Shown here: positions 119 through 18,929 of the stretch, one piece after another
Layout of the letters: every line of letters starts with the position of its first letter
How positions within the stretch are numbered: position 1 is the stretch's first letter
Translations under genes and position numbers: made by a program
Notes under the pieces: generated by a model
What the model was told of the DNA's origin: nothing
What the model saw: only the letters and a program-made list of their open reading frames with translations
Databases searched by the model: none
DNA from: Chromatiaceae bacterium
Lineage (GTDB): Bacteria > Pseudomonadota > Gammaproteobacteria > Chromatiales > Chromatiaceae
Assembly: GCA_028277465.1 (NCBI GenBank)
Contig: JANQGF010000022.1
Location: 1 to 45,859, forward strand
Reading direction: 5' to 3'
Length of the DNA: 45,859 nucleotides

Positions 119-1716
119 CGTGGGAGCGCCGCCCCGGCGCGACGCCCCCGTTTCATCGCCTCTAATTCGGCTCAGTTCGTCGGACGATATGCAACTGCAC
201 GTCATACGTTGCCTATCGGGTTTCATCGCCTCTAATTCGGCTCAGTTCGTCGGACGAGGTCGGCAAGTTCCAGCTTGCCTGACCTCCGTGTTTCATCGCC
301 TCTAATTCGGCTCAGTTCGTCGGACGCTGAGGCGGAGGCGGTGTTGGCGGAAGTTGCCGGTTTCATCGCCTCTAATTCGGCTCAGTTCGTCGGACAAGGA
401 AAGAGAGAAGGAGAAGAGTAGCGCTCGGTTTCATCGCCTCTAATTCGGCTCAGTTCGTCGGACAACGCATGGGACTGAAACCATGGGGTTTTCTCTCCGT
501 TTCATCGCCTCTAATTCGGCTCAGTTCGTCGGACCTAGAAATTCTGGCCGCTCAGTACGACGTGAGCGTTTCATCGCCTCTAATTCGGCTCAGTTCGTCG
601 GACGGCTGCTTGTTTTGACAGGAGAAAGAAGAAGACGGTTTCATCGCCTCTAATTCGGCTCAGTTCGTCGGACGTCACCCCCTCACCTGACCACGGTTCC
701 GGCGGATGTTTCATCGCCTCTAATTCGGCTCAGTTCGTCGGACACCTATGGTATGGAAATCATTTTCAACGCCGACAGTTTCATCGCCTCTAATTCGGCT
801 CAGTTCGTCGGACGCGCGGTGGTCGGGAGACAATCCGTGGCAAAAGCGTTTCATCGCCTCTAATTCGGCTCAGTTCGTCGGACCGAAGCCATTCTCGCTA
901 TTCTACGCGCCATACTGTTTCATCGCCTCTAATTCGGCTCAGTTCGTCGGACCGAATGACTTCACCGTCTCAATCGGAGAAATCGGTTTCATCGCCTCTA
1001 ATTCGGCTCAGTTCGTCGGACGCCCATGAGCAGACTCTCTGTTCACCTTCTCATGTTTCATCGCCTCTAATTCGGCTCAGTTCGTCGGACCTCGCCGGGC
1101 TGGCCGAAATTGTTGGTTGTCTGGGTTTCATCGCCTCTAATTCGGCTCAGTTCGTCGGACCTTCCGAAGGAACCCGCACGCGTCGCCGGGCACTGTTTCA
1201 TCGCCTCTAATTCGGCTCAGTTCGTCGGACAAGGCCCCGGCCACGAGCCCGTCAGTGGTCGATGTTTCATCGCCTCTAATTCGGCTCAGTTCGTCGGACC
1301 CCGACGTATGCTGGGTGGGAGAAACTTGAGAAGTTTCATCGCCTCTAATTCGGCTCAGTTCGTCGGACATTTCGATATCCTCAATGAGGTGGCCGACATC
1401 CTGTTTCATCGCCTCTAATTCGGCTCAGTTCGTCGGACTTCCGTGTTGATACCAACGCGGTCAAGGAGGTGGGTTTCATCGCCTCTAATTCGGCTCAGTT
1501 CGTCGGACCGCCCGGCGGGCCAAAAGAGGTCAACCGGAATCGGTTTCATCGCCTCTAATTCGGCTCAGTTCGTCGGACTGCCGGAGCGCCCGTCCTACTC
1601 CCGCTTCTTAGTTTCATCGCCTCTAATTCGGCTCAGTTCGTCGGACCCGGCCCTCGCCTCCGAGCAGCCATGGAAGAATTGTTTCATCGCCTCTAATTCG
1701 GCTCAGTTCGTCGGAC
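83..1716 (-). CRISPR. CRISPR array, 24 repeats of 36 nt and 23 spacers
   Basis: Twenty-three identical 36-nt repeats and one degenerate repeat (83-118) are separated by 23 unique spacers of 31-35 nt, mostly 33-34. Repeat starts include 150, 220, 290, 360, 428, 499 and so on up to 1611 and 1681. Read on the - strand, each repeat ends in GATGAAAC, which matches the usual 8-nt 5' handle of crRNAs in type III and related systems. The degenerate repeat at the left end marks the trailer, so transcription should run right to left from a leader at 1717-2009. The newest spacer is then 1647-1680. The repeat can form only a weak 4-bp hairpin (CTGA with TTAG around GCCGAA). The adjacent RT, cas2 and cas1 are transcribed divergently from the array. 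Confidence 0.98.
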
Positions 1717-2009: not shown

Positions 2010-2858
2010 ATGGCAGACTGGATCACGCACATCGCCAGCCCCGTCGTTCTCAACCATGCGTGGAATCTCGTGCGCAAAGACAAAGCGCGCTGGACCCGCG
2101 ACCTCACGATGCAGGAGGTAGAGCGCGATCTTCCGCTGCATATCGGGCTGGTGTCAGAGGAGCTGTTGAGCGGGCGGTACAGGCCGCAACAGGTGCAGTG
2201 CTTCGGCGTCACCAAGGCTAGCGGGGGAAGACGGATGATCTGCGCGCCGATGGTGCGGGACAAACTAGTGCAGAGGGCCGTCCTGACGGTACTGGAGCCG
2301 CTCGGCGAGCAGATCTTTCATCCCGCGAGCTTCGGGTATCGGCCAATGTGCACGCTCGACATGGCGCTAGCCCGGCTGCGCGAAGGGATTCGACAAGGCT
2401 ATTGTTGGCTGGGGGACGCCGACATCGCTCAGTGCTTCGACAGCATCCCGTTGAGACCCATGCTGGAGCAGGTCCATGCCCTATGCACCGACATGCAGGT
2501 GGTGAGCTTGGTGGAAAGCTGGCTGCACGCAATTCCGCCACGGCTCCGCCCCTTGGGACCCGGATTCGGGCTGCCACAGGGCTTGGTGCTGTCACCTTTT
2601 CTCTGCAATCTCTATTTGCACGACATGGACATGGATCTGGAAGATCAAGGGATTCCATTCGTCCGCTACGCGGACGATTTCATCGTGCTAGGAAGCAGCA
2701 GGCCAACCGCACAAACAGCGCTGGAAGTCGCAGCGGCCAGTCTGGAGCGCTTGCAGTTGCGGCTCAATCCCGAGAAGACCCGGGTCATCAAGACCTCGAG
2801 CATTCATCGCTTCCTAGGGAAGCGTCTGCCCAATGTTCGCAAGAGGATTGCCGGATGA
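2010..2858 (+). CDS. CRISPR-associated reverse transcriptase (group II intron-like, minimal)
   Basis: This 282-residue protein is an RNA-directed DNA polymerase of the group II intron lineage, expected to let the Cas1-Cas2 adaptation complex take spacers from RNA. Visible RT motifs are DADIAQCFDSIP (residues 136-147, catalytic D138), GLPQG with SPFLCNLYLHD (about 187-205), YADD (220-223) and FLGKRL near the C-terminus. The protein stops just after RT motif 7, so the thumb/maturase (X) and endonuclease domains of intron RTs are absent, and it is not fused to Cas1 or Cas6. The ATG at 2010 has a good Shine-Dalgarno (GAGGAGAG) upstream. Its stop overlaps the cas2 start as ATGA. The role in spacer capture is inferred from known RT-Cas1 systems and from the neighbouring genes. 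Confidence 0.92.
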   Translation: MADWITHIASPVVLNHAWNLVRKDKARWTRDLTMQEVERDLPLHIGLVSEELLSGRYRPQQVQCFGVTKASGGRRMICAPMVRDKLVQRAVLTVLEPLGEQIFHPASFGYRPMCTLDMALARLREGIRQGYCWLGDADIAQCFDSIPLRPMLEQVHALCTDMQVVSLVESWLHAIPPRLRPLGPGFGLPQGLVLSPFLCNLYLHDMDMDLEDQGIPFVRYADDFIVLGSSRPTAQTALEVAAASLERLQLRLNPEKTRVIKTSSIHRFLGKRLPNVRKRIAG

Positions 2859-3574
2859 GTCTCATCGAGCGCGCATCGACCTTTCACCGATCGGGCTTCG
2901 AGCGAACGCCGTTCGTCTTCAGCTATGACATCTCGTCGCCGAAACAAGCACGGGCCGTGCGCCGTTGCCTGCGGCGCTGGCGCCTGGATGGCCAATTGTC
3001 GGTGCACGAGGTCATCCTAACCCCGCCTGAGGCCGAGGCGCTGGGGGTCGAGCTGGTCGATCTGGTGGATCCAAAGACGGACAGCCTCATTCTGTTTCGC
3101 TTGTCGAGACGGGGCGATGGACCAGTCTACGCCTTGTCGTCGAAGACACCGCTGATGCTGTTCGCGCAGCGGATGGCCGCATTGCCCAGGTACCTGCATG
3201 ATGGATGCTATGTCGTGGCTTACGACGTTTCGCACCCGCGGCGCCTGCGTCGAATTCAACGCGTCACCAGTGAGCAGGGGGTGTTTTTACAACGGTCGGT
3301 CTACCTGTTTCGCGGCAAGGGCTCGGAGTTGTCCGCGATGCTGCACAGGGCCGAGCAGGTTCTGACCCAAGGCGAGGACGACATGCGGGTCTATGCCCTC
3401 TCGGCTCCGGATGATCTCTGGTTCTTGTGCGGCGCTGTCCCGCCCCTGACAGGATTGGTCAATCACCCTGCTCCAGAAATGTGGCAGCGGCTCCAGCGCT
3501 GGACCACGAATCCGGACATGGAGGGGCCTCGCAATCCGGCCTCGACCAGTCTCTTTGGAGCAAACCATGGATAA
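2855..3574 (+). CDS. cas2: tandem Cas2-Cas2 fusion
   Basis: The protein has 239 residues, more than twice the usual Cas2 length of about 90-100. Two Cas2 ferredoxin-like domains can be read. The first (about 19-86) starts FVFSYDISSPKQ with the conserved Asp at D25. The second (about 118-194) starts YVVAYDVSHPRR with D124 and the QRSVY strand. A linker of about 30 residues joins them, and about 45 residues follow the second domain. Cas2 normally works as a homodimer at the centre of the Cas1-Cas2 integrase, so one chain could supply a covalent pseudo-dimer. The ATG at 2855 overlaps the RT stop as ATGA. The 3' end overlaps cas1 by 8 nt. The reading frame is open far upstream (to 2348), but that part is a shadow of the RT gene. 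Confidence 0.9.
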   Translation: MSLIERASTFHRSGFERTPFVFSYDISSPKQARAVRRCLRRWRLDGQLSVHEVILTPPEAEALGVELVDLVDPKTDSLILFRLSRRGDGPVYALSSKTPLMLFAQRMAALPRYLHDGCYVVAYDVSHPRRLRRIQRVTSEQGVFLQRSVYLFRGKGSELSAMLHRAEQVLTQGEDDMRVYALSAPDDLWFLCGAVPPLTGLVNHPAPEMWQRLQRWTTNPDMEGPRNPASTSLFGANHG

Positions 3575-4496
3575 GGCAACGCTGATCGCGGATGAGCCAG
3601 GCACGCGCCTGCATTTCAAAGACAGCGTGATCGTGCTGGAGCGGCCCGATCAGAGGCATCACCGCATCGGGCTGAAGGCCATCAAGCAGATCGTCGTCAA
3701 GGGGGATGTGGATCTCTCCAGCAAGCTGCTGGACGCCTGCCTGGCGGCGGGGGTGAGCATCATCATCCTGCCGGGGCAACGCCGCGAGCCAGCGCGGCAT
3801 TTGTTTCCCCAGGCGGGCGGGGCCTTGGCCGTCCGCCTGGCGCAGTATGCGGCGTTTCTGGATCCTGGGCAGCGTCTGACCCTGGCCCAGGCCTTTGTGA
3901 CCAGCAAGATCGAGGCGCAGGCGGAGTGTCTGCGCCAGCACGGCGTCGAGCTGCCCTTGGAGCGTTTTGTCTCCAGCGCTCGCACCACGCACGACATCGC
4001 GGCACTCATGGGGGTGGAGGGCGCTGCGACCGCGCGCTATTTCAGCCATTGGTCGGCCTTGCTCGATCCGGACTGGGGCTTCAAGGGGCGTAATCGCCGC
4101 CCGCCACGCGATCCGGTCAACGCTCTGCTCTCCTTGGGCTACACTCTGGCTTGCCAAGCCGTCGGTCGGCTCGCCGCTCAACACGGCTTCGAGGCCGCGC
4201 TCGGGTTTCTGCATGCCCCGGCGCCGGGTCGTCCCAGCCTGGCGCTTGATCTGGTCGAGCCGTTACGGCCTTGGGTGGACGAGTGGATCCTGACGGTCTG
4301 CTCCGACGGGGGCTTCAGGGTCGACGACTTCGTCACCGACCCGACGCAGGGGTGCCGTTTGAAGAAGGCGGCCAGCGGCAATTTCTTTCATCGCTGGTAT
4401 TCGACCGCGGAGCATTGGCTCGAGCACCTGGCGCGAGGGCAACTGGGTGCCTTGCAGGACAGTCTAGCCAGCGCATGCGACTTTCGGCCCGCTTGA
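3567..4496 (+). CDS. cas1: Cas1 integrase
   Basis: Cas1 is the metal-dependent integrase that, with Cas2, inserts new spacers at the leader end of the array. The 309-residue product has an N-terminal beta domain (KDSVIVLE onward) and the alpha-helical catalytic domain. Expected metal ligands are visible: E151 in MGVEGAA, H216 in GFLHAPAPGRPSLAL, and D228/E231 in LDLVEPLRP. The NALLSLGYTL motif is also present. The ATG at 3567 is preferred because GGAG lies 6 nt upstream at 3557-3560. A TTG at 3555 is also in frame. It is not fused to the RT. The product is full length, so the module looks competent. Confidence 0.97.
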   Translation: MDKATLIADEPGTRLHFKDSVIVLERPDQRHHRIGLKAIKQIVVKGDVDLSSKLLDACLAAGVSIIILPGQRREPARHLFPQAGGALAVRLAQYAAFLDPGQRLTLAQAFVTSKIEAQAECLRQHGVELPLERFVSSARTTHDIAALMGVEGAATARYFSHWSALLDPDWGFKGRNRRPPRDPVNALLSLGYTLACQAVGRLAAQHGFEAALGFLHAPAPGRPSLALDLVEPLRPWVDEWILTVCSDGGFRVDDFVTDPTQGCRLKKAASGNFFHRWYSTAEHWLEHLARGQLGALQDSLASACDFRPA

Positions 4497-4561
4497 AAAT
4501 CGTCCGCTCCCGATCGTTGCTCGAGTCAGGAGCAGATGTGATCTAGAACGCTTATCATTGG

Positions 4562-4593
4562 CAATGCAGGCCTGTGTACACAGGATCGCATTG
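4562..4593. promoter_or_regulatory. 32-bp dyad, candidate operator of the effector operon
   Basis: A perfect 14-bp palindrome, CCTGTGTACACAGG (4571-4584), is flanked at equal distance (3 bp each side) by a second perfect inverted pair, CAATGC (4562-4567) and GCATTG (4588-4593). It sits between cas1 and the first effector gene, 31 nt before that gene's ATG and just after a -10-like TATCAT (4553-4558). This is the geometry of a site for a dimeric or tetrameric repressor. It could also fold as an RNA hairpin. No regulator gene is visible in the locus. Confidence 0.6.
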
Positions 4594-4623
4594 ATTGGGA
4601 AACTCTGTTCAGGAGCCAGTGTG

Positions 4624-7116
4624 ATGCCTCGACCTCAGCACAAGAACCCCGGCCTGCCCCCCCGCACCGCAACCGCGCCCTACAACTTCATTCCGTTGCC
4701 CTCGCAGGTCGTGCGGGCCGTCGAGACCCCAGAGCTGCTGCCCAGTCACGGCGGCACTTTCGATCAGGAGCGCTACCAATACTCGGGGTTCTTCGAGGTC
4801 GAGCTGACGACCCGCTCTCCGCTCTTCATCCGTTGCCCGCTCCGCCGCGCGCTCTTCGACCTTGATGAGCAGGGGCGGGATCGCCACGGCCAGTCCGTCA
4901 CGGCCGACACCCCTTATCCGGACCGCATCCGCAACATACCGGATTTCTTCCATCGCGGAGTCGCTGAACGACCCGTGATCCCCGGCAGCAGTCTGCGCGG
5001 CATGCTGCGGACCCTGCTGGAGATCGTCGGCCACGGCAAGATGGAGCAGATCAGCGAGCGGCAGCTCTTTTTCCGGACCCTGGATGACAGTGCCTTGGGC
5101 AAGGCCTATGGCAATCGCATGGTGGATGGAGAAGGGGACGCCGGGGATGGCTATCGGCCCAGGACGCGGCCCGGTTTCTTGCGCGCGGCCGGTGACGGCA
5201 CCTTCCAGATCGAGCCCTGCGACCTTGCCCGCGTCGAGCTGGAAGACGTGTGGCAAGCGTTCGGATTAGCGAGCGAGAGCAACCTCTACGATGGTACGGG
5301 ACCGAACGCCACGCCGCGCTGGGCCTATCAGCACCAGCGGGTTTGGGTGCGACTCGATCCAGCGGGTGTCCAGGACCATCGCCACAGCGCCGACAAACGG
5401 CACCCCGCTGGCAAGTATCTGCGCTACTGGGAGGTCCTCGAGATCAGGACCGTTGCGACTGCGGGCTACGAAGAAGCAACCCTGGTGCTGACGGGCAAGG
5501 TTCAAAAGCAGCACATGGCGTTCGTGTTTCTGGATCGGCCTGGTGCCCAGGCTTTCGACGTTGGATCGGACATCATTGAGCGGTTCTGCGATGACGATCA
5601 GCTCTCCCAGTGGCAGGAGTCGGCCTTTCCCTGTGACCAGCCGACATGCAACGCGCGTCGGCAGCCTGGCCACTTGCGCGACGGCGAGCCGGTGTTCTAT
5701 CTCATCGAAGACGGCCAACTCACCTTCCTCGGCCGGGCCCAGATGTTCCGGCTCCCCTATCAGCAGCGGGTGATCGATCTGGTCCCACAAGATCTTCGCC
5801 GGCCGGGGGACATCGATTTCGCCGATGCCTTGTTCGGCTACATCCGCAAGTCCGGTTATCCGGCCGACGCCAAGCAGGGGGATCCGGCGCGCGCCTACGC
5901 CGGACGAGTCTCGGTGACGGATGCCGAGTTCATCCCTGGACAGGATGGCCCCTGGTATTGCGAGAACCCCATCCGCCCGAAAAGGCTGGCTTCCCCCAAG
6001 CCCACCGCGATCCAGCACTATCTGGTTCAGACGGCGGATGAGACCAAGATCAAGAACCAGGTCGACAATCAGCTGCGACATCTCCAGGAACACGAGCGTC
6101 AAAAGGAATCACTGAAGAGAGTCCGCAAATCCTTGCTGCACTACGACAGCAATAGCGGGGGAACGGCCAATACCGAGCCGCGCGGCTTCAAGCGCTATTG
6201 GCATCATCAGCAGCCGGACATCGCGGCTGGTCCTGACGACGACATCAGCGACGCCCAGGATACGCAGTTCCGCCCGGTCGATATCGGCAAGCGGTTCGTC
6301 TTCCGAGTCCACTTCGACAGTCTGGCGGCCGAGGAACTGGGCGCGTTGTGCTGGATCCTGCGTCCGCAAGGCCATCCTGACCGCCAGTTCTGGCATCAGC
6401 TCGGCATGGGCAAGCCTTTGGGCATGGGCTCCGTGTCGCTGGAGACCAAGCTGCATCTCATCGATCACCGCGCTCGTTATTCAAAGCTCTTCGATGGGAA
6501 GCGTTGGATGCAGGGAGGCACCGACCCGCAACCCGTCGGCCTGTGGCGGGGGCAGAATATTCCGGCCGACCGTGAGCAAACCCCCGACGCACTCTTGCGC
6601 GCCTTCGAAAAGGCGGTGTTGCGCGGGATCGGCGCGCGCCCCAATGAGCGACGCCTAGCGGATACGGCACGCGTGCAGATGGTGCTGAAGATGCTTGATT
6701 CGGCCGGTCAACCGCCAGCACAAGTGAGAACACTCCCGCTACAAGGTGGAGACGTTGCGTTCCAGAAACGCCCGGTCCTGCCCGATCCGCGTGGGGTCGG
6801 ACAGAACCAAGATTACCGTATCCCTGCGCCTACTCCCATCGTCCCAGGGCTTGGCGGGGCAGTGCTGGATGACAAGGCTTTGCTCGGCCAGATCACTAGA
6901 TTCAAAGGGACGGGAGAGTCTCATAAATTGCATGCGCTGGTCGACGCGATTGCTAAGAAGGATGCTCCGAAGGAGCGCTGTGGCTATGCGAAACTGCTCA
7001 TGAAAGAGATCAAGAAGCACAGGAGTCTGAAGAGCGATCCGAAGCACGTCAATGCCATTTGGCGAAAGACGCTTGATCAGATCATTGGTGAGGATTGCAA
7101 TGACGCCGTAGAGTGA
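4624..7116 (+). CDS. type III-D RAMP protein, TIGR03986-like, first copy
   Basis: This 830-residue RAMP-superfamily protein belongs to the large family found with csx10 and csx19 in type III-D loci (TIGR03986-like, from memory). Visible marks are APYNFIPLP (18-26), a first-strand segment ELTTRSPLFIR (60-70), the RAMP helix motif PVIPGSSLRGMLR (117-129), SPKPTAIQHYLVQ in the middle, and a glycine-rich loop LGMGKPLGMGSV. It is expected to be a Cas7-related backbone or capping subunit of the crRNP; its exact role is unknown to me. The ATG at 4624 (or GTG at 4621) follows AGGAG at 4611-4615. The frame is open upstream to a TTG at 4558, but that start has no RBS and would cross the dyad. A paralogue, now split by an IS, lies at the other end of the operon. 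Confidence 0.85.
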   Translation: MPRPQHKNPGLPPRTATAPYNFIPLPSQVVRAVETPELLPSHGGTFDQERYQYSGFFEVELTTRSPLFIRCPLRRALFDLDEQGRDRHGQSVTADTPYPDRIRNIPDFFHRGVAERPVIPGSSLRGMLRTLLEIVGHGKMEQISERQLFFRTLDDSALGKAYGNRMVDGEGDAGDGYRPRTRPGFLRAAGDGTFQIEPCDLARVELEDVWQAFGLASESNLYDGTGPNATPRWAYQHQRVWVRLDPAGVQDHRHSADKRHPAGKYLRYWEVLEIRTVATAGYEEATLVLTGKVQKQHMAFVFLDRPGAQAFDVGSDIIERFCDDDQLSQWQESAFPCDQPTCNARRQPGHLRDGEPVFYLIEDGQLTFLGRAQMFRLPYQQRVIDLVPQDLRRPGDIDFADALFGYIRKSGYPADAKQGDPARAYAGRVSVTDAEFIPGQDGPWYCENPIRPKRLASPKPTAIQHYLVQTADETKIKNQVDNQLRHLQEHERQKESLKRVRKSLLHYDSNSGGTANTEPRGFKRYWHHQQPDIAAGPDDDISDAQDTQFRPVDIGKRFVFRVHFDSLAAEELGALCWILRPQGHPDRQFWHQLGMGKPLGMGSVSLETKLHLIDHRARYSKLFDGKRWMQGGTDPQPVGLWRGQNIPADREQTPDALLRAFEKAVLRGIGARPNERRLADTARVQMVLKMLDSAGQPPAQVRTLPLQGGDVAFQKRPVLPDPRGVGQNQDYRIPAPTPIVPGLGGAVLDDKALLGQITRFKGTGESHKLHALVDAIAKKDAPKERCGYAKLLMKEIKKHRSLKSDPKHVNAIWRKTLDQIIGEDCNDAVE

Positions 7117-7196: not shown

Positions 7197-8546
7197 ATGC
7201 GTCACTTGATCCTGCTGGTTGGAACCAATCCGCTGCCCAATGCGGTTGCGGCCCGTCTGCTGGCCAATCCCGGAGATAAGATCACTCTATTCGGATCGAA
7301 GGATTCCGGAAGGGAGATCGCGCAAAGACTCGGCCGCTGGCTTAGTCGGCAGTATCCGGAAGGCGAATCCCCAACGATTGCCTATGCGACGCTATCGAAC
7401 GCTGGTGACGAGTATCGACCGACTGCCATCACGTCGCGGTTGGAAGAGCACTTCGCGCGAGAGTGGCCGAACAGTCGGCCCGACGAGATTCACCTCCACT
7501 ATACCGGTGGAACCAAGACCATGTCCGTTCACGCGCGGGCCGCCGCCCTTGCCTGGCGAAATCGACAGAGCCCGCGCCCGCGCTTTCGTGCCTCCTACCT
7601 GGATCCCGAGGCGCTGGCGCTAGTCACCGATCCGGACGAAAACGAAGACGAAGAGCTTAAGATACCGCAGAAAGTCGAGACGATTACGTGCGACCGCATC
7701 CAGGTGACCATGTCTGATTTCCTGGATCTGCACGGCTGGAACCCGGACCTACCGGACGAGCGAGGCCCTGTGCTGCCTGATTTGGCACTTGCGCTTGCCA
7801 AAGCCCATGCCGATGACGCGGGCGACGGATTGAAAGCCTGGGAAGATTGGAAATGCCAGGAACTCTTACCAAGAACGAAGGAATGGCGAGAGGATGATGA
7901 ATTGCCAGGTCGTTGCACGGAAACAGGCGAATGGCTGAAGATCTGGCGCCCAATTGGGCGCTGGCGCAGACAGAACTCGTTTTGGAGAACGATTGTTATC
8001 CCGCCTCCTAGCAGCCGCCTAGTTCCTCATTTGTGGCAGCCAGATGTCCCACTCATCGACGCCATAAGCGGAATCGCTCCTGATGATCTTGCCCTAAAGC
8101 CAGAGCATTTCTGCAAATGGCTGGACGGAAACTGGCTCGAATCGGCAGTTATGCAGGCATTGTGCGACCTGAAGGAAGCCAAACAGCTTTATGAGTTGCG
8201 GACGAACGTGAAGCCGAGGCATCTTAGTGGAAATCAGGATCTCGGTTTCGAATTCGATGTCATCGCAATCCGGGGCTACCGCCTGTTCGCCTTCTCCTGT
8301 ACGACAGGCAATCAGAGCAAGGGACAACTAAAGCACAAGCTATTCGAAGCCTCAGTAAGGGCGCGCCAGATGGGTGGCGACGAGGCACGCACAGCCTTGG
8401 TCTGCTGCACCTCAAGAGACTGCGCCGGCGAATTGCAAGAAGAGCTCGAGCGGGAGCTGGATCTGAAGGACAAGATCGCCGTTTTTGGTCGGACGGACCT
8501 GGGCGACCTCACCAGCGCGATCGGCGCCTGGCTGGACGAGAACTGA
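7197..8546 (+). CDS. CARF-domain protein with degenerate PD-(D/E)XK-like C-terminus
   Basis: This 449-residue protein resembles the Card1/Can2 group of cyclic oligoadenylate-activated effectors. The N-terminal Rossmann-like CARF domain shows LLVGTNPLPN (6-15) and YTGGTKTMS (102-110), the usual ligand-binding loops. The C-terminal part has E315 (NWLESAV) and FEFDVIAIRGYRLFAF with D354, the core of a PD-(D/E)XK nuclease. However, the position of the canonical E-x-K carries S367-C368-T369. A lysine (K375 or K379) or a different chemistry could substitute, or the protein could be a non-nuclease sensor. It lies 80 bp after the first RAMP gene and 11 nt before cas10, with SD GAGAGGGA. The context says it responds to the Cas10 signal. 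Confidence 0.8.
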   Translation: MRHLILLVGTNPLPNAVAARLLANPGDKITLFGSKDSGREIAQRLGRWLSRQYPEGESPTIAYATLSNAGDEYRPTAITSRLEEHFAREWPNSRPDEIHLHYTGGTKTMSVHARAAALAWRNRQSPRPRFRASYLDPEALALVTDPDENEDEELKIPQKVETITCDRIQVTMSDFLDLHGWNPDLPDERGPVLPDLALALAKAHADDAGDGLKAWEDWKCQELLPRTKEWREDDELPGRCTETGEWLKIWRPIGRWRRQNSFWRTIVIPPPSSRLVPHLWQPDVPLIDAISGIAPDDLALKPEHFCKWLDGNWLESAVMQALCDLKEAKQLYELRTNVKPRHLSGNQDLGFEFDVIAIRGYRLFAFSCTTGNQSKGQLKHKLFEASVRARQMGGDEARTALVCCTSRDCAGELQEELERELDLKDKIAVFGRTDLGDLTSAIGAWLDEN

Positions 8547-8557
8547 GGCTTGAAGAA

Positions 8558-10234
8558 ATGGAATTGCTGATGACGGATACCGTGGGCATTCAAGGCTATG
8601 TCTTTGGCAGCAACCGGCTGCGGGAGAACGTCGGCGGCTCCTATCTGGTGGCTCAAGCCACCGGGGACTGGGCCTTCGAGGCCCTGCGCGCCGCGACGGG
8701 GGGACGGTGCAACATCGCGAAGGATCGCACGCTGGACCCCAACTGGACCATTGAGCATCAGGACGATGGCGGCGAGCTGATTTACAGCGGCGGCGGCAAT
8801 GTCCTCGCACTCTTTCAGACCGCTTCCGCCAGAGAGAATTTTCTACGCATCCTCTCCAAGCGCCTGACCGAAGAGGCGCCGGAGCTCGAGCTGGTGGCCG
8901 CGAGCATCCCGTTCGACTGGGCGCGCGATCAGCTTCGGGACAAGCTCGATGAGCTGACCTTGAAGCTGGCCACCAAGAAACGCGAGCGACCCCGCTATCT
9001 TCCGCTCGCCGGTCTCGGCGTCAGCCGGGCCTGTCAGGCGACCGGGCTTCCCGCCATTGGCGCCGTTCCGATCCCCACGTCGGACGGCGAGACCGAGGAG
9101 CGCATTGCGTCCGCGGAGATCCTGGCGAAGCTGGCCGCCACCAAGCCCGGGAGCGACAACCGCAGCGCCGCCGAGCGGCGGCTCTATGCACTCGTCGGGG
9201 ACAGCCTCCCGCCGCGGTTCCGGTTTCCACGCGACATCGAGGATCTCGGGGGAACGCACGGCGAGAACAGCTACATGGCCGTGGTCCACGCCGATGGCGA
9301 CGGTATGAGCGAGCGTCTGCGCCAGGCCGTCCGGCAGCCGGGTCTCGATGGCCCGCGTGATCAGATCAAGGCCCTGCGCGACTTCTCGGCGGCCGTGGAA
9401 CAGGCGGGCGCGACGGCCCTGAAGACGATGGTGAAGGCCCTGGCCGACCGGATCGATCAAGCAAGCGGCCGTCTCTCCCACTCGCATTCAGACAAGAAGG
9501 ATCTGCATATCGACCTCCGCAAAGTGAAGTCGCGCAGTCCCGCGGATCAGGACGTGGCCTGGTATCTCCCATTTCGGCCGCTGGTCTTCGGTGGGGACGA
9601 TCTCACGTTCGTCTGCGATGGCCGCCTCGGGCTGTCTCTGGCGCAAGTCTTCCTGGAGCAATTCAAGGCCCATGCGGCAAACCTGCCTGGTGGCGGCACC
9701 ACGGCCTCGGCCGGCGTCGCCATCGCCAAGGCGGGTCGCCCCTTCGCGCGGACTTATGCGATGGCCGAGGAGCTCTGCCGGTCAGCAAAGGACTATCGTC
9801 GGGAGACCCAACAGCAGAACCCCTGCCTGGATTGGTACTTCACCGCCACCTCGGCGAATCGCGGGATCAAGCGGATTCGCGAGCGCGAGTATCAGGCCGC
9901 TGTAACCCGCGACCCCCTGTACCTGAGACCCGTCGAGCTGACCGACGACACCCCCTATTGCCAGGGTCGCACCTGGCAAACCCTGGAGACCGTGCTGCAC
10001 GCGTTTCAAGGCGAGAAGTGGCGGCATCGGCGCAACAAGGTCAAGGCACTCCGCGAGGCGCTCCGGCAGGGGGATCCGGACACGATTCACTGGTTCCGGA
10101 CCAAGTATCTCGAAGGCGGCGAGCTTCCCCCGGTGCCGAATGGCCGCGCGAATTGGCCTACGGAGGGCTGGGACGGTGAATTGTGCGGCTATTTCGACGC
10201 CATCGAGCTGATCGATCACTACATCCCGCTTTGA
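8558..10234 (+). CDS. cas10: Cas10, HD-less, with intact GGDD cyclase motif
   Basis: Cas10 is the large subunit of type III complexes and makes cyclic oligoadenylates from ATP when target RNA binds. This 558-residue protein starts directly with the first Palm-like segment (TVGIQGYVFGSNRLRENVG, residues 8-26), so the N-terminal HD nuclease domain is missing and no single-stranded DNA cleavage is expected. The second Palm domain has FGGDDLTFV with GGDD at 345-348, intact for cyclase activity. HADGDGMSERL (about 246-256) is the matching Palm strand of the other half. Family members with HD domains are usually 700-900 residues. ATG 8558 is used; an alternative ATG is at 8570. It ends 10 nt before the cas7 gene. 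Confidence 0.92.
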   Translation: MELLMTDTVGIQGYVFGSNRLRENVGGSYLVAQATGDWAFEALRAATGGRCNIAKDRTLDPNWTIEHQDDGGELIYSGGGNVLALFQTASARENFLRILSKRLTEEAPELELVAASIPFDWARDQLRDKLDELTLKLATKKRERPRYLPLAGLGVSRACQATGLPAIGAVPIPTSDGETEERIASAEILAKLAATKPGSDNRSAAERRLYALVGDSLPPRFRFPRDIEDLGGTHGENSYMAVVHADGDGMSERLRQAVRQPGLDGPRDQIKALRDFSAAVEQAGATALKTMVKALADRIDQASGRLSHSHSDKKDLHIDLRKVKSRSPADQDVAWYLPFRPLVFGGDDLTFVCDGRLGLSLAQVFLEQFKAHAANLPGGGTTASAGVAIAKAGRPFARTYAMAEELCRSAKDYRRETQQQNPCLDWYFTATSANRGIKRIREREYQAAVTRDPLYLRPVELTDDTPYCQGRTWQTLETVLHAFQGEKWRHRRNKVKALREALRQGDPDTIHWFRTKYLEGGELPPVPNGRANWPTEGWDGELCGYFDAIELIDHYIPL

Positions 10235-10244
10235 GGACAGAGAC

Positions 10245-10910
10245 ATGAGGCTCCGAATCACACTGGAGAGTGACGCCACCTTCGGCGGGGCGGACGGCGT
10301 ACCGGGTCTGGTCGACCTGGAGGTTCGTCGCGATCGTTACGGGCTGCCGCTCATGCCCTGGCGCCGGATCAAAGGCCTGCTCACCGAGGAGTGCGCCAAC
10401 CTGCTGTATGCCTTGAAGACCTTGCAGACTCATCCGGCCAGCGCCGACCTGGAAGCGGCGGCCCGCGCACTCTTCGGCTCGCCGGGCGGTCAAGAAGGCG
10501 CCCTGCGCGGCGGTGATGCGCGACTGCCCGAGGATTTGGACGCGGCGGTGATGGACGACGTGCGCGCCAACAAGGTGACCCCCGACGAGGTCATCGGCTC
10601 CCTCACGGCCATTCGCCGCCAATCGGCGATCGACCCGCATGGCGCGCCGGCTGAAGGCAGCCTGCGGGCGATACGGGTGCTCCTGCGTGGCTGCGTGCTC
10701 GAAGCCCGCGTGAGGATCGACCCGGCCCCTGACGCGGCGCAGCAGGCGCTGCTCGGCAGTTGTATCAGCGCGCTGCGGCGTGGCGGCGTGGGTCGCAATC
10801 GCGGCTTGGGCCGCTTGAGCGTGCAGTTGCTGGATGAGAAGGAAGACAAGGACTTGGCCACTGAGTGGCTGTCCGCTCTGGAACGACTGACCGAGGCGAG
10901 GCAAGCATGA
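10245..10910 (+). CDS. cas7: Cas7-family RAMP protein (Csm3-like)
   Basis: This 221-residue RAMP protein has the size of a single Cas7 backbone subunit. It has the helix motif LPLMPWRRIKGLL (34-46), TAIRRQSAIDPHG with AEGSLRAIRVL in the thumb region, and a glycine-rich loop RRGGVGRNRGLGRLSV near the C-terminus. Cas7 subunits coat the crRNA, and in type III they cut the target RNA every 6 nt with an Asp. An acidic candidate lies in the first loop (D24 or D30), but I cannot assign it with certainty. SD GAGGACAGAG precedes the ATG. Its stop overlaps the csx10 start as ATGA. Confidence 0.85.
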   Translation: MRLRITLESDATFGGADGVPGLVDLEVRRDRYGLPLMPWRRIKGLLTEECANLLYALKTLQTHPASADLEAAARALFGSPGGQEGALRGGDARLPEDLDAAVMDDVRANKVTPDEVIGSLTAIRRQSAIDPHGAPAEGSLRAIRVLLRGCVLEARVRIDPAPDAAQQALLGSCISALRRGGVGRNRGLGRLSVQLLDEKEDKDLATEWLSALERLTEARQA

Positions 10911-12514
10911 AGGTACTGCCCTACCGGATCCGACTGCGTCAACCGGTCCTGGCGTCCACGCTGGGAGGCGATCCCAACAATGTGGTCGGGCTCGACTATC
11001 TGCCCGGAAGCGCCCTGCGCGCGCTGCTGATCAAGGCCTTTTCCAAAGGCCAAACGTTGGACGCCGCCGATCCCCGAGTACGTCGTCTGTTCTTCGATCA
11101 TCGCGTGCGGTTTCTGAACGCCTATCCAGCAGGCTTCGAAGGTCGGCGCGCCATCCCGACGCCACGCTCCTGGCATCGGATCAAGGGGGACGAGGGCTCG
11201 CCGGCCCTCGACTTTGCGCTGAATCAGCCGGCGTCCAAGGAGGGAACGACATACGAAGCGGTCTCGGCACCGTTCGTCAATCCCTATGAAGAAGAGGGCG
11301 ATGAAAAACAGCGTGCTTATGTGATCGTTCCGGAGCGCGAGCAGAGCATCCATACGACCCGTGACCGTCGCGCGGGGCGGGCGCGGGAGTCAGGTGACAT
11401 CTATGGCTACGACGCCCTCGCCCCAGCTCAGACCTTCAGGGCCGCGATCCTCTGCGACGAGGATGCGGATGCCGAGATTCTGCATGGGTTATTCCCGCCA
11501 CATGCCCGCATCGGCGGCGGGCGTACGGCCTACGGCGAGGTGGAGATCACTCCCGAGCCGCCGACCCGTGGTGACGATTGGCGGGAACTGGAGGGTGTCG
11601 GCGATGAGCCGGCGATCGATGATGACGAGCTCGTCGTAACCCTCCTGAGCGACACCCTGCTGCGCGATGAGCATGGAACCCTGCGTCCGGACACCGAGCT
11701 GTTGCGTACGGTCCTCGAGCGCCGACTCGGCAATGGCGTCGCGCTGCGGCCGCGGGACAGCTTCCTCGCCGCCGAGACCGTCGGTGGCTTCAACAACACC
11801 TGGGGACTGCCCCTGCCGCAGAGCGCGGCGATCGCCATGGGCTCGGTCTTCGTCTACCAGCTCGCGCGGGGCGCAGCCACGAGCCAGCAACTCCTAGCCC
11901 TGGAGTGGACCGGCATCGGCGAGCGGCGTGCCGAGGGCTTTGGACGTCTCCTGGTCAATTGGCCGACGCACAAGTCCTGGCGGATTGGCGACTGGTCAGG
12001 TCCGGGCCAACGGTCAACCGCGGCGATTACCAGCAACGCTGGCCAGGACATGGCGAAAGCCATGGCGCGCCGAATGCTGGCGTCCCGGGTGGAGCGTGCG
12101 ATGACCAAGACCGCCATGGATCATTCGACCGATCACTATCGGATCCACCGGGCGCCACCTCCATCACAACTGGCCCGGCTCCGTCAGACCGTGCAGGAGG
12201 AGCTGCTCGAGGCGAGCCCAAGCCCCGGCTGTATCACCGCTTTTCTCAACGATCTTCAGCGCACGGCGATGAATCATCTGAGTCGCGCCCGCATCGAGGG
12301 CCAGCCGCTGGATGGCTGGCTGCGGGGGTTGGCCAACGGCTGGGATGAAACAACCTGGCAAGGGCGCCTTGGTCTGAGGAGCAGGGATCTCCCAAAAGTG
12401 GGTGAAATCGCGCCCTCCATCGACCAAGCGCAGCGCGACCTTGACCTGTTGCGCTTCCTCGATCTGGTTCTGGCCCGAGCGATCAAGGATGCCCGCAAAG
12501 GAGGTGGAACATGA
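10907..12514 (+). CDS. csx10: Csx10 RAMP protein (Cas5-like, III-D signature)
   Basis: This 535-residue protein is the signature subunit of type III-D and is expected to cap the 5' handle of the crRNA in the Cas5 position. Visible features are YLPGSALRALLIKAF (31-45), a first glycine-rich loop RIGGGRTAYGEVEI (about 205-218), and a second TGIGERRAEGFGRLLVNW (about 335-352). The C-terminal third, after the second loop, is helical in character. The ATG at 10907 overlaps the previous stop (ATGA) and has SD GAGGCGAGGC. The frame is open 14 codons upstream to 10865, but that start lies inside cas7. It overlaps the next gene by ATGA. Confidence 0.87.
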   Translation: MKVLPYRIRLRQPVLASTLGGDPNNVVGLDYLPGSALRALLIKAFSKGQTLDAADPRVRRLFFDHRVRFLNAYPAGFEGRRAIPTPRSWHRIKGDEGSPALDFALNQPASKEGTTYEAVSAPFVNPYEEEGDEKQRAYVIVPEREQSIHTTRDRRAGRARESGDIYGYDALAPAQTFRAAILCDEDADAEILHGLFPPHARIGGGRTAYGEVEITPEPPTRGDDWRELEGVGDEPAIDDDELVVTLLSDTLLRDEHGTLRPDTELLRTVLERRLGNGVALRPRDSFLAAETVGGFNNTWGLPLPQSAAIAMGSVFVYQLARGAATSQQLLALEWTGIGERRAEGFGRLLVNWPTHKSWRIGDWSGPGQRSTAAITSNAGQDMAKAMARRMLASRVERAMTKTAMDHSTDHYRIHRAPPPSQLARLRQTVQEELLEASPSPGCITAFLNDLQRTAMNHLSRARIEGQPLDGWLRGLANGWDETTWQGRLGLRSRDLPKVGEIAPSIDQAQRDLDLLRFLDLVLARAIKDARKGGGT

Positions 12515-13968
12515 TCACATCGATGTGGGCTGCGGAGAGCAGCCGCAAGATCCGCAAACGCATCTGCGTGACTGGAGACCTGATCTTGCAGACGCCGGCC
12601 TGCCTCGGCAACGGCGACGCCGACGACGCGGTGGACATGCCATTGCTGGTCGACCCCTCGGACGGTCGAACACCACTCTTGACCGGGGCCTCGCTGGCAG
12701 GCGCCCTGCGCTCCTTTCTGCGCGAGTGGGAGCACGGGTATGAGGCTCCGGCTCGCTCTCAGTCGCACACCGTCGCGCTGTTCGGGGGTAACCGTGAGGA
12801 TCCCGAGGGCGAGCAGAGCAGGCTGATCATCGACGATGCATTGGGCCGTGACGCGCATGTCGAATTGCGTCACGAGGTGGGACTCGACCCGCGTAGCCGC
12901 ACCGCGGCGGAGGACCGGCTGTTCAATCGCCAGCTGTGGGCCGCCGGCACCCGTTTCACTGTGCGCTTCGAGCTCATCATTACGGACGGGGATGACGAGG
13001 CCGGACTGATTCAGGCCCTGGCGACCGCGCTGATGGGTCTGCAACGGGGCGAGATCGCGCTGGGGGCGAGGAAGCGTCGGGGCTACGGTCTCGCCCGAGT
13101 GGAGACCTGGACCGTGAAGCGCTACGACCTTGGATCGCGCGAGGATCTGTTCGCCTGGCTGCGAGACGGAACGGCATCGGGTGGCAAGCCAGACGGTGAC
13201 ATCTGCCAGGGGCTCGGAACTGCGCCTCTTGTCGACAAGCGACGCCATTTTGACCTGAGCGCGACTTTCTCCATCCAGGGAACCCTGCTGATGGCGGCAA
13301 CGGCCAGCGCGGAGGGTCCGGACAAGATTCATATCCGCTCGCGTCGTCAGGCGACCGAGGTGCCCGTTGCTCCGGGTACCGGCATCGCAGGGGCGCTCAG
13401 GGCGCGGTCGAAGCGCATTGCGTGGACCTTGTTGGCCGCCGATGAGACACGGGCCGATAAACTGGTCGATAGCATCTTCGGCCCGCGAAAGATCGAGAGC
13501 GGCGTGCCGTCCTTTGCCTCTGCGCTGGAGGTTTGGGAATCCGAGGTCACGGGCGGTGAGCCGGACTGGGTCCAGTTTCGCATTCGTATCGATCGTTTCA
13601 CCGGTGGCGTCTTGCCCGGCGCCCTGTTCAATGCCCAGCCCCTGACCGGGGGACAGGTGAGCCTGAGATTACGCCTACGCAACCCGGAGCGGCACCAGAT
13701 CGGTCTCCTGCTACTTCTGCTCAAGGATCTATGGACCGGCGACTTGCCCCTGGGAGGTGAAACATCCATCGGACGCGGCAGGCTCAAAGGGATCGAAGCT
13801 GCGCTCACGCTCAGCGGCCCCGAGGGCAAACAGCGCTGGACGATCAGCGATCCAGGTTCCGATGGGCTGGCTATCGAGGGTGATACGCAGATCCTCGAGA
13901 ATTATGTCAGCACGCACCTCAACGAATGGATCGCGCAGCGGGAGAAGGAGACGCGCCATGGCGAGTGA
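12511..13968 (+). CDS. double Cas7 RAMP fusion (Csm3-like x2)
   Basis: This 485-residue protein contains two RAMP/Cas7 units. Unit 1 (about 15-200) has TGASLAGALRSFL (58-70), a thumb-like region with DPRSRTAAEDRLFN and the loop GARKRRGYGLARVE. Unit 2 (about 245-435) has VAPGTGIAGALRA (about 287), IDRFTGGVLPGALFNAQPL and the loop GGETSIGRGRLKG. It should fill two adjacent backbone positions of the complex, and each unit could carry a target-RNA cleavage Asp. Acidic loops (GDADDAVDMP; AEGPDK) sit at the expected places. Fused Cas7 units in III-D complexes are the proposed ancestors of the single-protein type III-E effector. ATGA overlap upstream; it overlaps csx19 by 11 nt. Confidence 0.87.
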   Translation: MITSMWAAESSRKIRKRICVTGDLILQTPACLGNGDADDAVDMPLLVDPSDGRTPLLTGASLAGALRSFLREWEHGYEAPARSQSHTVALFGGNREDPEGEQSRLIIDDALGRDAHVELRHEVGLDPRSRTAAEDRLFNRQLWAAGTRFTVRFELIITDGDDEAGLIQALATALMGLQRGEIALGARKRRGYGLARVETWTVKRYDLGSREDLFAWLRDGTASGGKPDGDICQGLGTAPLVDKRRHFDLSATFSIQGTLLMAATASAEGPDKIHIRSRRQATEVPVAPGTGIAGALRARSKRIAWTLLAADETRADKLVDSIFGPRKIESGVPSFASALEVWESEVTGGEPDWVQFRIRIDRFTGGVLPGALFNAQPLTGGQVSLRLRLRNPERHQIGLLLLLLKDLWTGDLPLGGETSIGRGRLKGIEAALTLSGPEGKQRWTISDPGSDGLAIEGDTQILENYVSTHLNEWIAQREKETRHGE

Positions 13969-14620
13969 GCCGATTCGGAAGATTCACGCGGTTAACGCCA
14001 AGAGTGAGCCACTTGGGGATGCCTCCGGCATCGCCGATGATGCCGGCCTGTTGGCCTGGCTCCAGAAGAACCTCAAGGAGCACGCGCCGACCTGGCTTCT
14101 GGCGCATGCCGATGATGGGGTCATCTGGGGCCGCTATACGCCTAAGGCGGGACTCGTGACCTCACACGATCTGGAACCAACGGTCAGTCCACCGCTGCGT
14201 GAGATAACGCTTCAACAGGCGCGACTCTTTGCGGTGTCGACCGAGATCCTACTGTGGCGCGACGAGGACGGGTGGCGTGCACGTCTGGTGCAGGATGGAT
14301 GCGAGGACGCCGTCTCCCAGTGGCATGAGTGCTACGACGAGCACCAGATGCTCTGGGGCAACCGTGGGACCGCTTTGGAACAGGATTTCACGCTCTGGGA
14401 AGAAGGCGCACGCGGACTGCGTCATGCGGTTCCTTGGCCGCTACCAGAGACCGGAACGAAACCGCCCGTCCCGCCCCGCCTTTGGGTCCGTCATTACCTG
14501 ACGCCAAGCGGTATCGCGGCGGTCGAGCTGTCCCGCCTCTGTGGTCTGGTCGCGGAAGGCGCACCTTTACCGGTATCGGGCGATTCGCCAAAGGCAGGCG
14601 TCGGGGAGTCGACTCAATGA
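13958..14620 (+). CDS. csx19: Csx19 (TIGR03984-like)
   Basis: This 220-residue protein matches the Csx19 family, seen only in type III-D loci. Recognisable stretches are TWLLAHADDGVIWG near residue 45, EHQMLWGNRG in the middle, and the FTLWEEGARGLRHAVPWP block with WVRHYL following. No catalytic motif is visible. It is thought to be a subunit or accessory of the III-D complex. The ATG at 13958 has SD GGAGAAGGAG directly upstream. It overlaps the preceding double Cas7 gene by 11 nt and the following RAMP gene by ATGA. The frame is open further upstream but only as a shadow of the previous gene. Confidence 0.83.
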   Translation: MASEPIRKIHAVNAKSEPLGDASGIADDAGLLAWLQKNLKEHAPTWLLAHADDGVIWGRYTPKAGLVTSHDLEPTVSPPLREITLQQARLFAVSTEILLWRDEDGWRARLVQDGCEDAVSQWHECYDEHQMLWGNRGTALEQDFTLWEEGARGLRHAVPWPLPETGTKPPVPPRLWVRHYLTPSGIAAVELSRLCGLVAEGAPLPVSGDSPKAGVGESTQ

Positions 14621-14870: not shown

Positions 14871-15001
14871 TTCCGCCCCGTACACGATTTTGAGCGGGTT
14901 GACCTGCATGGCTTGGCAAGCCCGACGGCCTGAGCGAGGGTGACAGACACCGCTAATCGGTGGTGATCGGCGCACTTTGTTGCCTTGCTGAGGAGTCCGT
15001 G

Positions 15002-16483
15002 ATGTCGAGTCTGTTGCCCCCTATTTCCGAGCACGCTGTCTTTGCCCCGGTGCAAGCCGACGTCGATGACCTGATCACGATGGTCAAGGATGCCGTTGGA
15101 GCGGGCACCGCAGCCCATACCCTCGAGTTGGGGTTGTGGCGCAGTCTGCTGGAGCTGGGTCATCAGCTGTTTCAGGGCTTTCTCACGCTCAGCGGCCAGG
15201 GCGATGTCGGCGCGCGGCTCACGCTGGAGGATGGGCGCGAGATCAAACGCTTGGCCGCGCGTACGCGACCCTATCGCAACCTGTTCGGGGAGTATGAGAT
15301 TGAGCGGTTCGTCTACGCTCAGCGCGAAGGTCAGACGCTGGAAGCGATCCCGTTGGATCAGCGCCTGCAACTGCCACAGGGCTGTACCTCCTACCTGCTG
15401 TCGGATTGGAACACCCAGTTGATGCAGGAGACGCCCTATGCCCATGCCGCGGGCTGGCTCGAGCGGGTGTTGGGGCTGCGCCAGTCGGTGCAGACCCTCG
15501 AGCGGGATCAGGGGCGCTTGAGCGCTCAGGCAGAACGCTTTTGGGAACAGGTGCCCGTGGCAACGCCGCTGGCGGCGGGAATGATTCTGGTCGATACCCT
15601 CGACGGGAAGGGCGTGTGCATGCGCCCGAGCGAGACCCAGGGCGAGCGCGGCAAGAAGAAGATGGCACTCCTCGGGAGCGTCTATGGCATCGCGCCGTAC
15701 GTGCGCACCCCCGAGCAGGTGCTCGCCGCCCTGTTTGCCGATACCTGCCCAGCACCCCCGTCTGGCGCACGCCCCAAGCCGTTGACGAAGCATGTGCGCG
15801 CCTGCCTCAAGCGTGACGATGCCGATACAACCGCCCCGCAGACCGCCGAGATCTGCGCCTGGATCGCCCAGCAGAATGCCCTTCGCGACCCCGAGCAGAG
15901 TCATCCGAGCGTCCTGCTCATCGACGGGCAGACCAACCTCTGGCAGGCCATGCGTGAGGCGGTTCCGGGCGAACAGGTCACCGAGATCCTCGATCTGCTG
16001 CATGCCTCGGGATATGTGTGGGAGGCGGCCAAACTGTTGCATCCGAACGATTCACCCGCCGCCGAGGCGGCGGCCAAGCGCGATCTACGCCTCATCCTGC
16101 ACGGCCAGGTCGGCGAGGTCATTGCCATGCTCCAGCGCGACGCCGAGTCCTCAACCGGCACCCGCCGCAAGACCCTTGAGGGCATCGCCGGCTACTTCGA
16201 CAAGCATCGCGATCGGATAGCCTACGACCTCTATCTTGCCGAGGGCTTTCCCATCGCCACCGGGGTGATCGAGGGCGCGTGCCGCTGCCTGGTCAAGGAC
16301 CGCATGGAGCGCGCAGGCATGCGTTGGGTGATGGCCGGAGCCCAGAGTATGCTCGCGCTACGCAGCATCACGCTCAGCGGGCTGTGGGAGGAGTTCATGG
16401 CCTTCTACGTCCGCGACGACTTGCGCCGACGCTACGGGACAGCCGTCGCTAACGATGATACCTACCACTGGCTCGCCGCCTGA
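15002..16483 (+). CDS. ISKra4-family transposase
   Basis: The 493-residue transposase moves the element that carries it. A probable acidic triad can be placed: D198 or D201 in MILVDTLDGKG, D308 in VLLIDGQTN, and E424 in TGVIEGACRCLVKDRMERAGMRW, a block typical of the ISKra4 family. The N-terminal third is helical. The ATG at 15002 has SD GAGGAG and is preferred over an in-frame GTG further upstream (14960). It is full length and stops 27 bp before the right end of the IS. It is transcribed in the same direction as the cas genes. Confidence 0.93.
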   Translation: MSSLLPPISEHAVFAPVQADVDDLITMVKDAVGAGTAAHTLELGLWRSLLELGHQLFQGFLTLSGQGDVGARLTLEDGREIKRLAARTRPYRNLFGEYEIERFVYAQREGQTLEAIPLDQRLQLPQGCTSYLLSDWNTQLMQETPYAHAAGWLERVLGLRQSVQTLERDQGRLSAQAERFWEQVPVATPLAAGMILVDTLDGKGVCMRPSETQGERGKKKMALLGSVYGIAPYVRTPEQVLAALFADTCPAPPSGARPKPLTKHVRACLKRDDADTTAPQTAEICAWIAQQNALRDPEQSHPSVLLIDGQTNLWQAMREAVPGEQVTEILDLLHASGYVWEAAKLLHPNDSPAAEAAAKRDLRLILHGQVGEVIAMLQRDAESSTGTRRKTLEGIAGYFDKHRDRIAYDLYLAEGFPIATGVIEGACRCLVKDRMERAGMRWVMAGAQSMLALRSITLSGLWEEFMAFYVRDDLRRRYGTAVANDDTYHWLAA

Positions 16484-16519: not shown

Positions 16520-18929
16520 CCTTGGCGTTGAGCCAGTTCACCAACCCAGTAGAAGGCGGGGATGACTACAAGCGGCGGACCAAGAACGTTCCGGGTTTCT
16601 TCCATCGCGGACGGATGACCGCACCGGTCATCCCAGGCAGCAGCCTGCGCGGGATGTTGCGCACGATCGTCGAAGTGGCGAGCTATGGCAAGGTCAGCCA
16701 GGTGACAGATCGCGCGCTGATCTATCGCGCCGTTGGCGATACGACCTCATTGGGTGCCTGGTATCGGCAACAGACTCTCGGCCCGAACAAGAAGCTCGCG
16801 GCGGCATTGCACTTCGATTATCCCTCGCTCAATCTCAAAGGCGGCTACCTGTGCCGGCACCAAGGGGATTGGGCGATTCGCCCGGCACGGTGCGATGCGT
16901 CGACCTACGACCAATCGATCATCCGCGTCCCCTTCGATCGGCTTGGTCCGACCTTACAATCGGCTCGACTGGGTCGCCATCAGGTTCATCCTGTCTATGT
17001 CGTGCCGGCACCGCGACGCGACACACCGCGAGGTGATGGCGGTCTGGTGCTGAACATGGCGGAAACCCCCGAATCGATTACGCGACGTGATCCCGCGCGC
17101 CCGACGAGCTCCGATCATGACATGGTACCGGCTTGGCTGATCGAGTCGGGGGTTCTTGGTGGGAAGAAATCTCAATACGCCATCTATGAGCCAGATTCGA
17201 AAGCCAAGCCGATCCCGATTCCACCCAGCCTGTGGGAGCAGTATCTCGAAGACCGTGAGCTCAACCGAGGGGACGGACGCGGATCCCGTGCGCTGGGAAA
17301 GAAGACGGATCTGCTCGAGGGCGACGGCGACCCACTGTTCTATCTGGTCGATCATGAAGACAAGCTCATCTTCTTCGGCCCGACCATGATGTTCCGCCTG
17401 CCCTACCAGAGGTCGCCGAAAGACCTGATCCCCGAGCCTTTGCGCCAACCGCTCGATATCGACTTCGCCGATGCCTTGTTCGGCTATATCCGTCGTGCCG
17501 AGGATTTCCGGCAAGCCGGCAAGGAACGGCCCGAGCAGGGCGATCCGGAATGGGCCTATGCTGGACGCGTATCCGTATCGGATGCAACCCTGGAAGATGG
17601 ACAGTCTGGTGACGATCTTTTCTTGCCAGAGTTGACTCCCCGTATCCTATCGTCTCCCAAGCCAACCGCTTTCCAGCATTATTTGGTGCAGGGCAGGAAT
17701 CCATCATCGCCCATTCGCCGACCTGAAGATCTGATGAGCCTGGATGCGGACTCCGTGGTGCGGACGAACCTAAGCCATTATGATTCGCCAACACCCGACA
17801 TGGATGAACGCCTTCGCGGACAGCATACGGTGCTGCGCGGTACCAAGTTCTATTGGCATCAAGGGCTCCGTACTACCCATCAGTTGGCTCAACCCGGGGA
17901 AATTCCGGAAAGCTCAAGTCAGCACACCCGCATGACCCCGGTGGCACCCCACAAGACTTTCGTCTTCTCGGTGCACTTCGATAATCTCTCGGATGCAGAG
18001 CTCGGTGCACTCTGCTGGGCGCTGCATCCGCGTGGGCACGAGGGTCGGCAATACCGTCATAGTCTTGGCATGGGCAAACCCCTTGGCATGGGTGCCGTTA
18101 AGCTCGAAGCCGAACTGAGGCTGACGAATCGCCGCGAGCGTTACACGCGGCTGCTTGATATCAATCACAATCATTGGGAAAGCGGATCTGGACGTCCGCA
18201 AGATTTATCCGACCCAGCGGTACGTGATGCTCTAGTTGAGCCATTCGAAGACCGTATCCTGAACGACTTAGGCGTGAAAGATTGCGCATCGCTCGCACAC
18301 TTGCGCCGCTTGGGCGCATTGCTCAAATTGATGGATTGGCCTGGCCCGGATCCCGAAAGAAGTCTCGCCTGGGACATCGAACTGGAGGGTTGGCAGCCGT
18401 GGAAAGACCGGCGCGTCCTGCCGCCCACATCGGACATGGCCTTTGGCGATTCTATCAGTCGCACATCAGTGCCAGCCCCTTCTGACTCGAGAGAAGTCCT
18501 CGATTGGCGCGTGGCCCGAGAAAGGGGTGATGCGGAGCCCGTTGTCGAGCCAGGCGAGCATTTCGCAAGCGCGGATGATCTCCGGAACGCACTCGCGAAG
18601 ACAATCGGCCTGACAAGTCATGCAACGAAGCTCAAACCCGAGGATACGCAGACTCCAAATGTGCCAGTCGTGGACCGAGATGCCGAATTGGAAAAAATCG
18701 CTAATTGGAATGAAAATCAGTTGGCGCGCAATCTTGGCCGTGATGGAAACAAGGTCATCAAGGCATTCAGCGGCGCCGAGTCAGAGCTTATTGCTACCCT
18801 TTCCAAGCATCACTCGGAAACACTGCGTTCTTGGCGGGAAAGTCAGGACAAAAGCAAGAGCAAGGCTGCGAGGAATTGGGAGAAATGGCGACGGACGCAC
18901 GGCGGCACTCTCTCCTAGGCGTGGCGCAT

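Follow-up and report, generated by a model that had tools for sequence, protein, structure and literature searches.

A fused pair of divergent Cas2 domains in the adaptation module of a type III-D CRISPR locus from a Chromatiaceae bacterium

Known Cas1-Cas2 integrases use a two-fold symmetric Cas2 dimer as their base. A gene that encodes two Cas2 domains in one polypeptide raises the question of where these domains came from and what becomes of that symmetry. Such a gene lies at 2855-3574 of a 45,859-nucleotide stretch of DNA (contig JANQGF010000022.1 of assembly GCA_028277465.1; hereafter the window) from a Chromatiaceae bacterium, a purple sulfur bacterium. The initial annotation, made from the sequence alone, read the product as a covalent, asymmetric Cas2 dimer, of which one half may have specialised, for example to contact a neighbouring reverse transcriptase (RT).

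The gene is an uninterrupted open reading frame on the forward strand, running from the ATG at 2855 to the stop codon at 3572-3574, and its 239-residue product comprises two complete Cas2 domains in one chain (Table 1). The annotated limits (residues 19-86 and 118-194), each enclosing its own Y-D-[IV]-S strand (D25 within YDIS and D124 within YDVS), proved right to within a few residues. The Pfam Cas2 family (PF09827) matches two stretches of the protein, and when the halves are searched apart both exceed the curated cut-off (residues 21-86, E=1.2e-8; residues 119-184, E=1.3e-9). The PADLOC and NCBIfam Cas2 models also match twice each; the whole protein and its C-terminal half pass the NCBIfam cut-off (TIGR01573), and the N-terminal half falls below it. 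AlphaFold2, run on the chain alone with nine sequences, predicted two ferredoxin-like folds, not one (E18-25 to E91-95 and E117-124 to E188-192), with a mean pLDDT of 73.9, a pTM of 0.71, and residues 1-13 and 202-239 unstructured. Foldseek searches of the PDB with this model returned Cas2 structures at a probability of 1.00. The fused relative in Thiorhodococcus drewsii, 31% identical, was predicted to have the same two-domain layout (pTM 0.77), and the two pTM values faintly suggest a defined arrangement between the domains.

The gene sits in a type III-D locus (Table 1), with Cas10, Csx10, Csx19 and multiple III-D Cas7 proteins. Upstream, a CRISPR array is followed by what is probably its leader (1717-2009), since a degenerate 24th repeat at about 83-118 identifies that side of the array as the old one. 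The fusion gene overlaps both of its neighbours: it starts within the stop of the RT gene (ATGA), and its stop codon shares bases with the start of cas1. These overlapping ends indicate that RT, Cas2 and Cas1 form a tight operon. A group-II-like RT with its catalytic motif near cas1, and no group II intron RNA found by Rfam search, identifies an RT-associated type III adaptation module. The effector operon has a second copy of the large III-D Cas7 at its far end (16522-18918; DNA 72% identical to the first over 137 nt). Between this copy and Csx19 is a 507-residue open reading frame (14960-16483) with no PADLOC match, the first part of which has no Pfam match either.

Table 1. Features of the adaptation module and effector operon, in window coordinates.
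Feature	Position	Strand	Evidence and remarks
CRISPR array	150-1716		36-nt repeat in 23 exact copies; spacer length 32-35 nt, most often 34
Stand-alone group-II-intron-like reverse transcriptase	2010-2858	+	282 aa; YADD motif at residue 220
cas2N-cas2C fusion gene	2855-3574	+	239 aa; open reading frame, Pfam, PADLOC, AlphaFold2, Foldseek
Cas2N domain, residues 19-95	2909-3139	+	YDIS (D25); Glu of Q-x-S-V-x-E strand kept (SVHE); canonical Tyr of last strand absent
Linker, residues 96-116	3140-3202	+	AlphaFold2 model
Cas2C domain, residues 117-192	3203-3430	+	YDVS (D124); Glu lost (SVYL); D-D-x-R-x-Y-x-L kept
C-terminal tail, residues 202-239	3458-3571	+	Predicted unstructured; short or missing in fused relatives
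cas1	3567-4496	+	One copy in the locus; Glu, His and Asp kept at the catalytic columns
Large type III-D Cas7 (TIGR03986)	4558-7116	+	Profile match
CARF-PDDEXK (Card1/Can2-like) effector	7197-8546	+	Profile match
Cas10 of type III-D	8558-10234	+	Profile match
Cas7 of type III-D	10245-10910	+	Profile match
Csx10 (Cas5 of III-D)	10865-12514	+	Profile match
Cas7-Cas7 of type III-D	12511-13968	+	Profile match
Csx19 (Cas11 of III-D)	13757-14620	+	Profile match

The window gene joins two Cas2 paralogues that are ancient and divergent. The two halves give no BLASTP alignment with each other even at E=100. Relatives were sought in genomes of the order (210), the class (369) and the phylum (399), where relatives of the two halves usually share one locus and are encoded as two separate genes, here called cas2N and cas2C. 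The fusion thus locks together an older Cas2N/Cas2C pair. With profiles trained on the first 40 loci, the margin between N and C is about 55 to 110 bits at nearly every one of these loci, and 20 held-out pairs (six from genomes of the phylum-wide sample) classify in the same way, cleanly but with smaller margins. For single canonical Cas2 genes the scores from the two profiles are about equal. A tree of 136 Cas2 domains places 49 C domains in one clade (support 99/96) and 48 N domains in a second (100/94), and each half of the window protein is closer to the same half in other genomes than to its partner. These results bear out the initial statement that the halves differ in sequence, and they reject a recent duplication within a single Cas2 gene and subsequent drift, an explanation that the presence of two same-family domains in one chain would suggest and that we consider very improbable. 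Both clades divide into the same two subgroups, an RT/tandem/fused group and a group with a second cas1 gene (cas1'), although inner details of the tree are uncertain because the alignment has only 86 columns. Within each clade the fused halves also group together (C, 98/92; N, 93/85), which is compatible with a single fusion event.

The two lineages have moved together. A mirror-tree comparison of N and C over 48 loci gave r=0.89, a value reached by none of 2000 permutations; this correlation shows co-inheritance and a shared operon history, not contact. The N gene is upstream of the C gene in every locus, and either alone is rare except at contig ends or in decayed copies. Only 1-230 nt lie between tandem cas2N and cas2C genes, so that a small change would suffice to fuse them. 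In two further loci with RT-Cas1 fusions (L062, 4449-7906, where a PIN-domain gene stands alongside, and L116) a tandem of two cas2 genes is likewise found, the genes being separated by one in-frame stop and 6 nt. These Cas2s fall outside the N and C clades, so both loci were left out of the N/C counts, and they may represent a second, separate Cas2 pairing.

There are four main arrangements of the pair: (i) cas2N - cas1 - cas1' - cas2C, in about 25 loci of the order and class and five of the phylum-wide sample, (ii) cas2N - cas2C - cas1 - RT, in 12 loci, (iii) cas2N - cas2C - cas1 without RT, in four loci (e.g., Allochromatium vinosum pALVIN01), and (iv) RT - cas2N=cas2C - cas1, in the window, Lamprobacter modestohalophilus, Thiocapsa imhoffii and Thiorhodococcus drewsii. 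In a few loci an RT and a detectable cas1' are both missing. No locus has the two together, a pattern that, like the others, partly follows phylogeny and does not represent independent events. In the first arrangement, the match of Pfam Cas1 to the gene that separates cas1 from cas2C falls chiefly in the N-terminal domain. The same gene also matches PADLOC PDLC01185, 'Cas1, diverged variant, second in the loci', so this second Cas1 has already been noticed by the curators of the family library. The catalytic Glu and His columns are lost in all 22 Cas1' sequences and the Asp is mostly kept; Cas1' is therefore probably an inactivated integrase subunit, an asymmetric second subunit in these sister loci. 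The window holds no Cas1'. Elsewhere in the same genome (L035, G000:C117, 6185-8703) cas2N - cas1 - inactivated cas1' - cas2C stands beside a type III-A effector, and the fused and cas1' arrangements thus coexist in one cell.

These arrangements bear on the proposal that one half had specialised for RT contact. That idea is rejected as an account of how N and C split, for the same split is found in loci without an RT, among them A. vinosum pALVIN01 and about 25 loci with a degenerate Cas1. RT contact is an unlikely origin of the split, and a present-day contact of one half with the RT is possible. The initial observation of two Cas2 domains in one chain is confirmed, and its interpretation is partly supported: the covalent, asymmetric Cas2 pair stands on good evidence, with two very different domains drawn from lineages N and C, and the RT explanation of their difference does not hold.

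Fusion itself is rare, with five intact genes and one broken gene among at most 1278 genomes scanned, and is thus not required for function. Besides the window, intact fused genes occur in the Chromatiaceae L. modestohalophilus, T. imhoffii and T. drewsii and in G277, a genome of another family, in whose fused locus (L104) no RT was detected within its 15 kb stretch. In Chromatium okenii (L038, 5336-5674) the RT and the Cas2N half are intact and are followed by unrelated DNA with no C half, a decayed adaptation module. In another locus (L186, 393-1584) the cas2C downstream of cas2N is truncated at about 30 residues, with an RT open reading frame directly after it, possibly through an insertion in cas2C. 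A plasmid search returned only the unfused Allochromatium pair and one decayed copy on an A. tepidum plasmid. No match to the fusion was found among phages or viral contigs, and a phage or viral origin was rejected.

The Cas2 signature differs between the two lineages. The Asp of strand 1 is invariant and the Q-x-S motif is kept in all N and C sequences. Nearly all N-type sequences retain the Glu of the Q-x-S-V-x-E strand and have lost the Tyr of the last strand; the C type has lost the Glu and kept D-D-x-R-x-Y. Judged from these alignments, the ancestral Cas2 signature looks as if it had been divided between two partners.

Taken together, Cas2N and Cas2C probably operate as an obligate pair in numerous Pseudomonadota type III adaptation modules, and the single chain into which they are fused here most likely forms a covalent pseudo-dimer in place of the Cas2 homodimer. 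We infer that the pseudo-dimer would be intramolecular, the N and C domains folding against each other to stand in for the homodimer. In the solved structure of the Cas6-RT-Cas1-Cas2 complex, two Cas1 dimers are bridged by a central Cas2 dimer, with the RT positioned beside the latter (PMC8102632). The simplest model would place one Cas2N-Cas2C chain where this dimer sits, giving an integrase of one such chain, four Cas1 and one or more RTs. The fused chain would fix a 1:1 ratio of N to C, and with it the stoichiometry and orientation of the scaffold. As each half keeps different parts of the signature, the two Cas1-binding faces are proposed to be unequal. A site for an accessory partner might then exist on one side only, taken by the RT here and by the inactivated Cas1 (a Cas1' dimer) in sister systems; alternatively, the asymmetry could serve to tell apart the two ends of the prespacer. 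Since the window locus has a single Cas1, its asymmetric Cas2 may bring in no asymmetric partner except the RT.

The most probable alternative is that the domains do not pair within the chain. Each domain would pair with its own kind, or N with the C of another chain, giving a bridged higher-order complex that joins two integrases. The linker of about 20 residues could extend to another chain, and Cas2 in known structures is a homodimer. However, N and C are inherited in lockstep and solitary copies are rare, which fits an N-C unit, and the pTM of the single chains (0.71-0.77) points the same way, so we consider this arrangement unlikely. Pairing within the chain is also preferred to the reading that a single half functions as Cas2 and the other is a relic or spacer domain. 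Each half does lack a canonical residue (the last-strand Tyr in N, the Glu in C), but both retain Y-D, Q-x-S and the full fold. Furthermore, each persists as a gene of its own across the phylum, with one missing only in broken copies (C. okenii and the A. tepidum plasmid), and a non-functional half is improbable. An artefact of sequencing or assembly, which a draft contig and the nearly touching genes of relatives might invite, is rejected as having next to no likelihood, given the independent, uninterrupted fused genes in L. modestohalophilus, T. imhoffii, T. drewsii and G277, which group in a clade of their own.

Known Cas2 fusions are Cas2-DnaQ (type I-E) and Cas2/3 (type I-F), in which the extra covalent domain is an unrelated enzyme, whereas in the window it is a second Cas2. 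Canonical Cas2 (PF09827, TIGR01573) shares the fold, the Y-D and Q-x-S-V motifs, and an adjoining cas1 and CRISPR array, but its subunits are identical, in contrast to the two unequal domains of two old lineages in one chain described here. The Thiomicrospira Cas6-RT-Cas1 system with Cas2 (PMC8102632) and the Marinomonas RT-Cas1/Cas2 system also combine a group-II-like RT, Cas1 and Cas2 with a type III array; in both, RT and Cas1 form one protein and Cas2 is homodimeric, whereas the window has a separate RT and a fused, unequal Cas2 pair. The PDLC01185 loci contain the same two Cas2 lineages, but as two cas2 genes with a degenerate second Cas1 in place of the fusion, RT and one Cas1 of the window. 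Unfused counterparts of both halves, in the same order, are found in A. vinosum DSM 180 pALVIN01, where two adjacent cas2 genes (RefSeq ALVIN_RS15665 and ALVIN_RS16745) precede cas1; there the genes are separate, the effector is of type III-B, and no RT lies within 12 kb of the pair. Searches of the open literature turned up no description of fused, heterodimeric or conserved paired Cas2 or of a second Cas1, though earlier notice elsewhere is possible, and the key RT-CRISPR papers make no mention of such Cas2 forms.

That type III adaptation uses old, unequal Cas2 pairs is a wider point and of more interest than the fusion. Type III systems are PAM-independent and must still insert spacers at a defined place and in a defined orientation. 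One tentative reading, which we hold to be rather less probable than its negation, is that asymmetry is built into a broad class of Pseudomonadota type III integrases. Cas2N and Cas2C, as obligate partners in a heterodimer, would carry active Cas1 on one side and RT or Cas1' on the other, which would fix the direction or substrate of spacer integration, and the window fusion would be its covalently locked form. An unequal Cas2 scaffold, long kept and in one case joined covalently, would break the symmetry of the integrase at its centre, and the role of that symmetry becomes testable. In a single-chain Cas2 pair each Cas2 position could be mutated separately, which is impossible in a homodimer.
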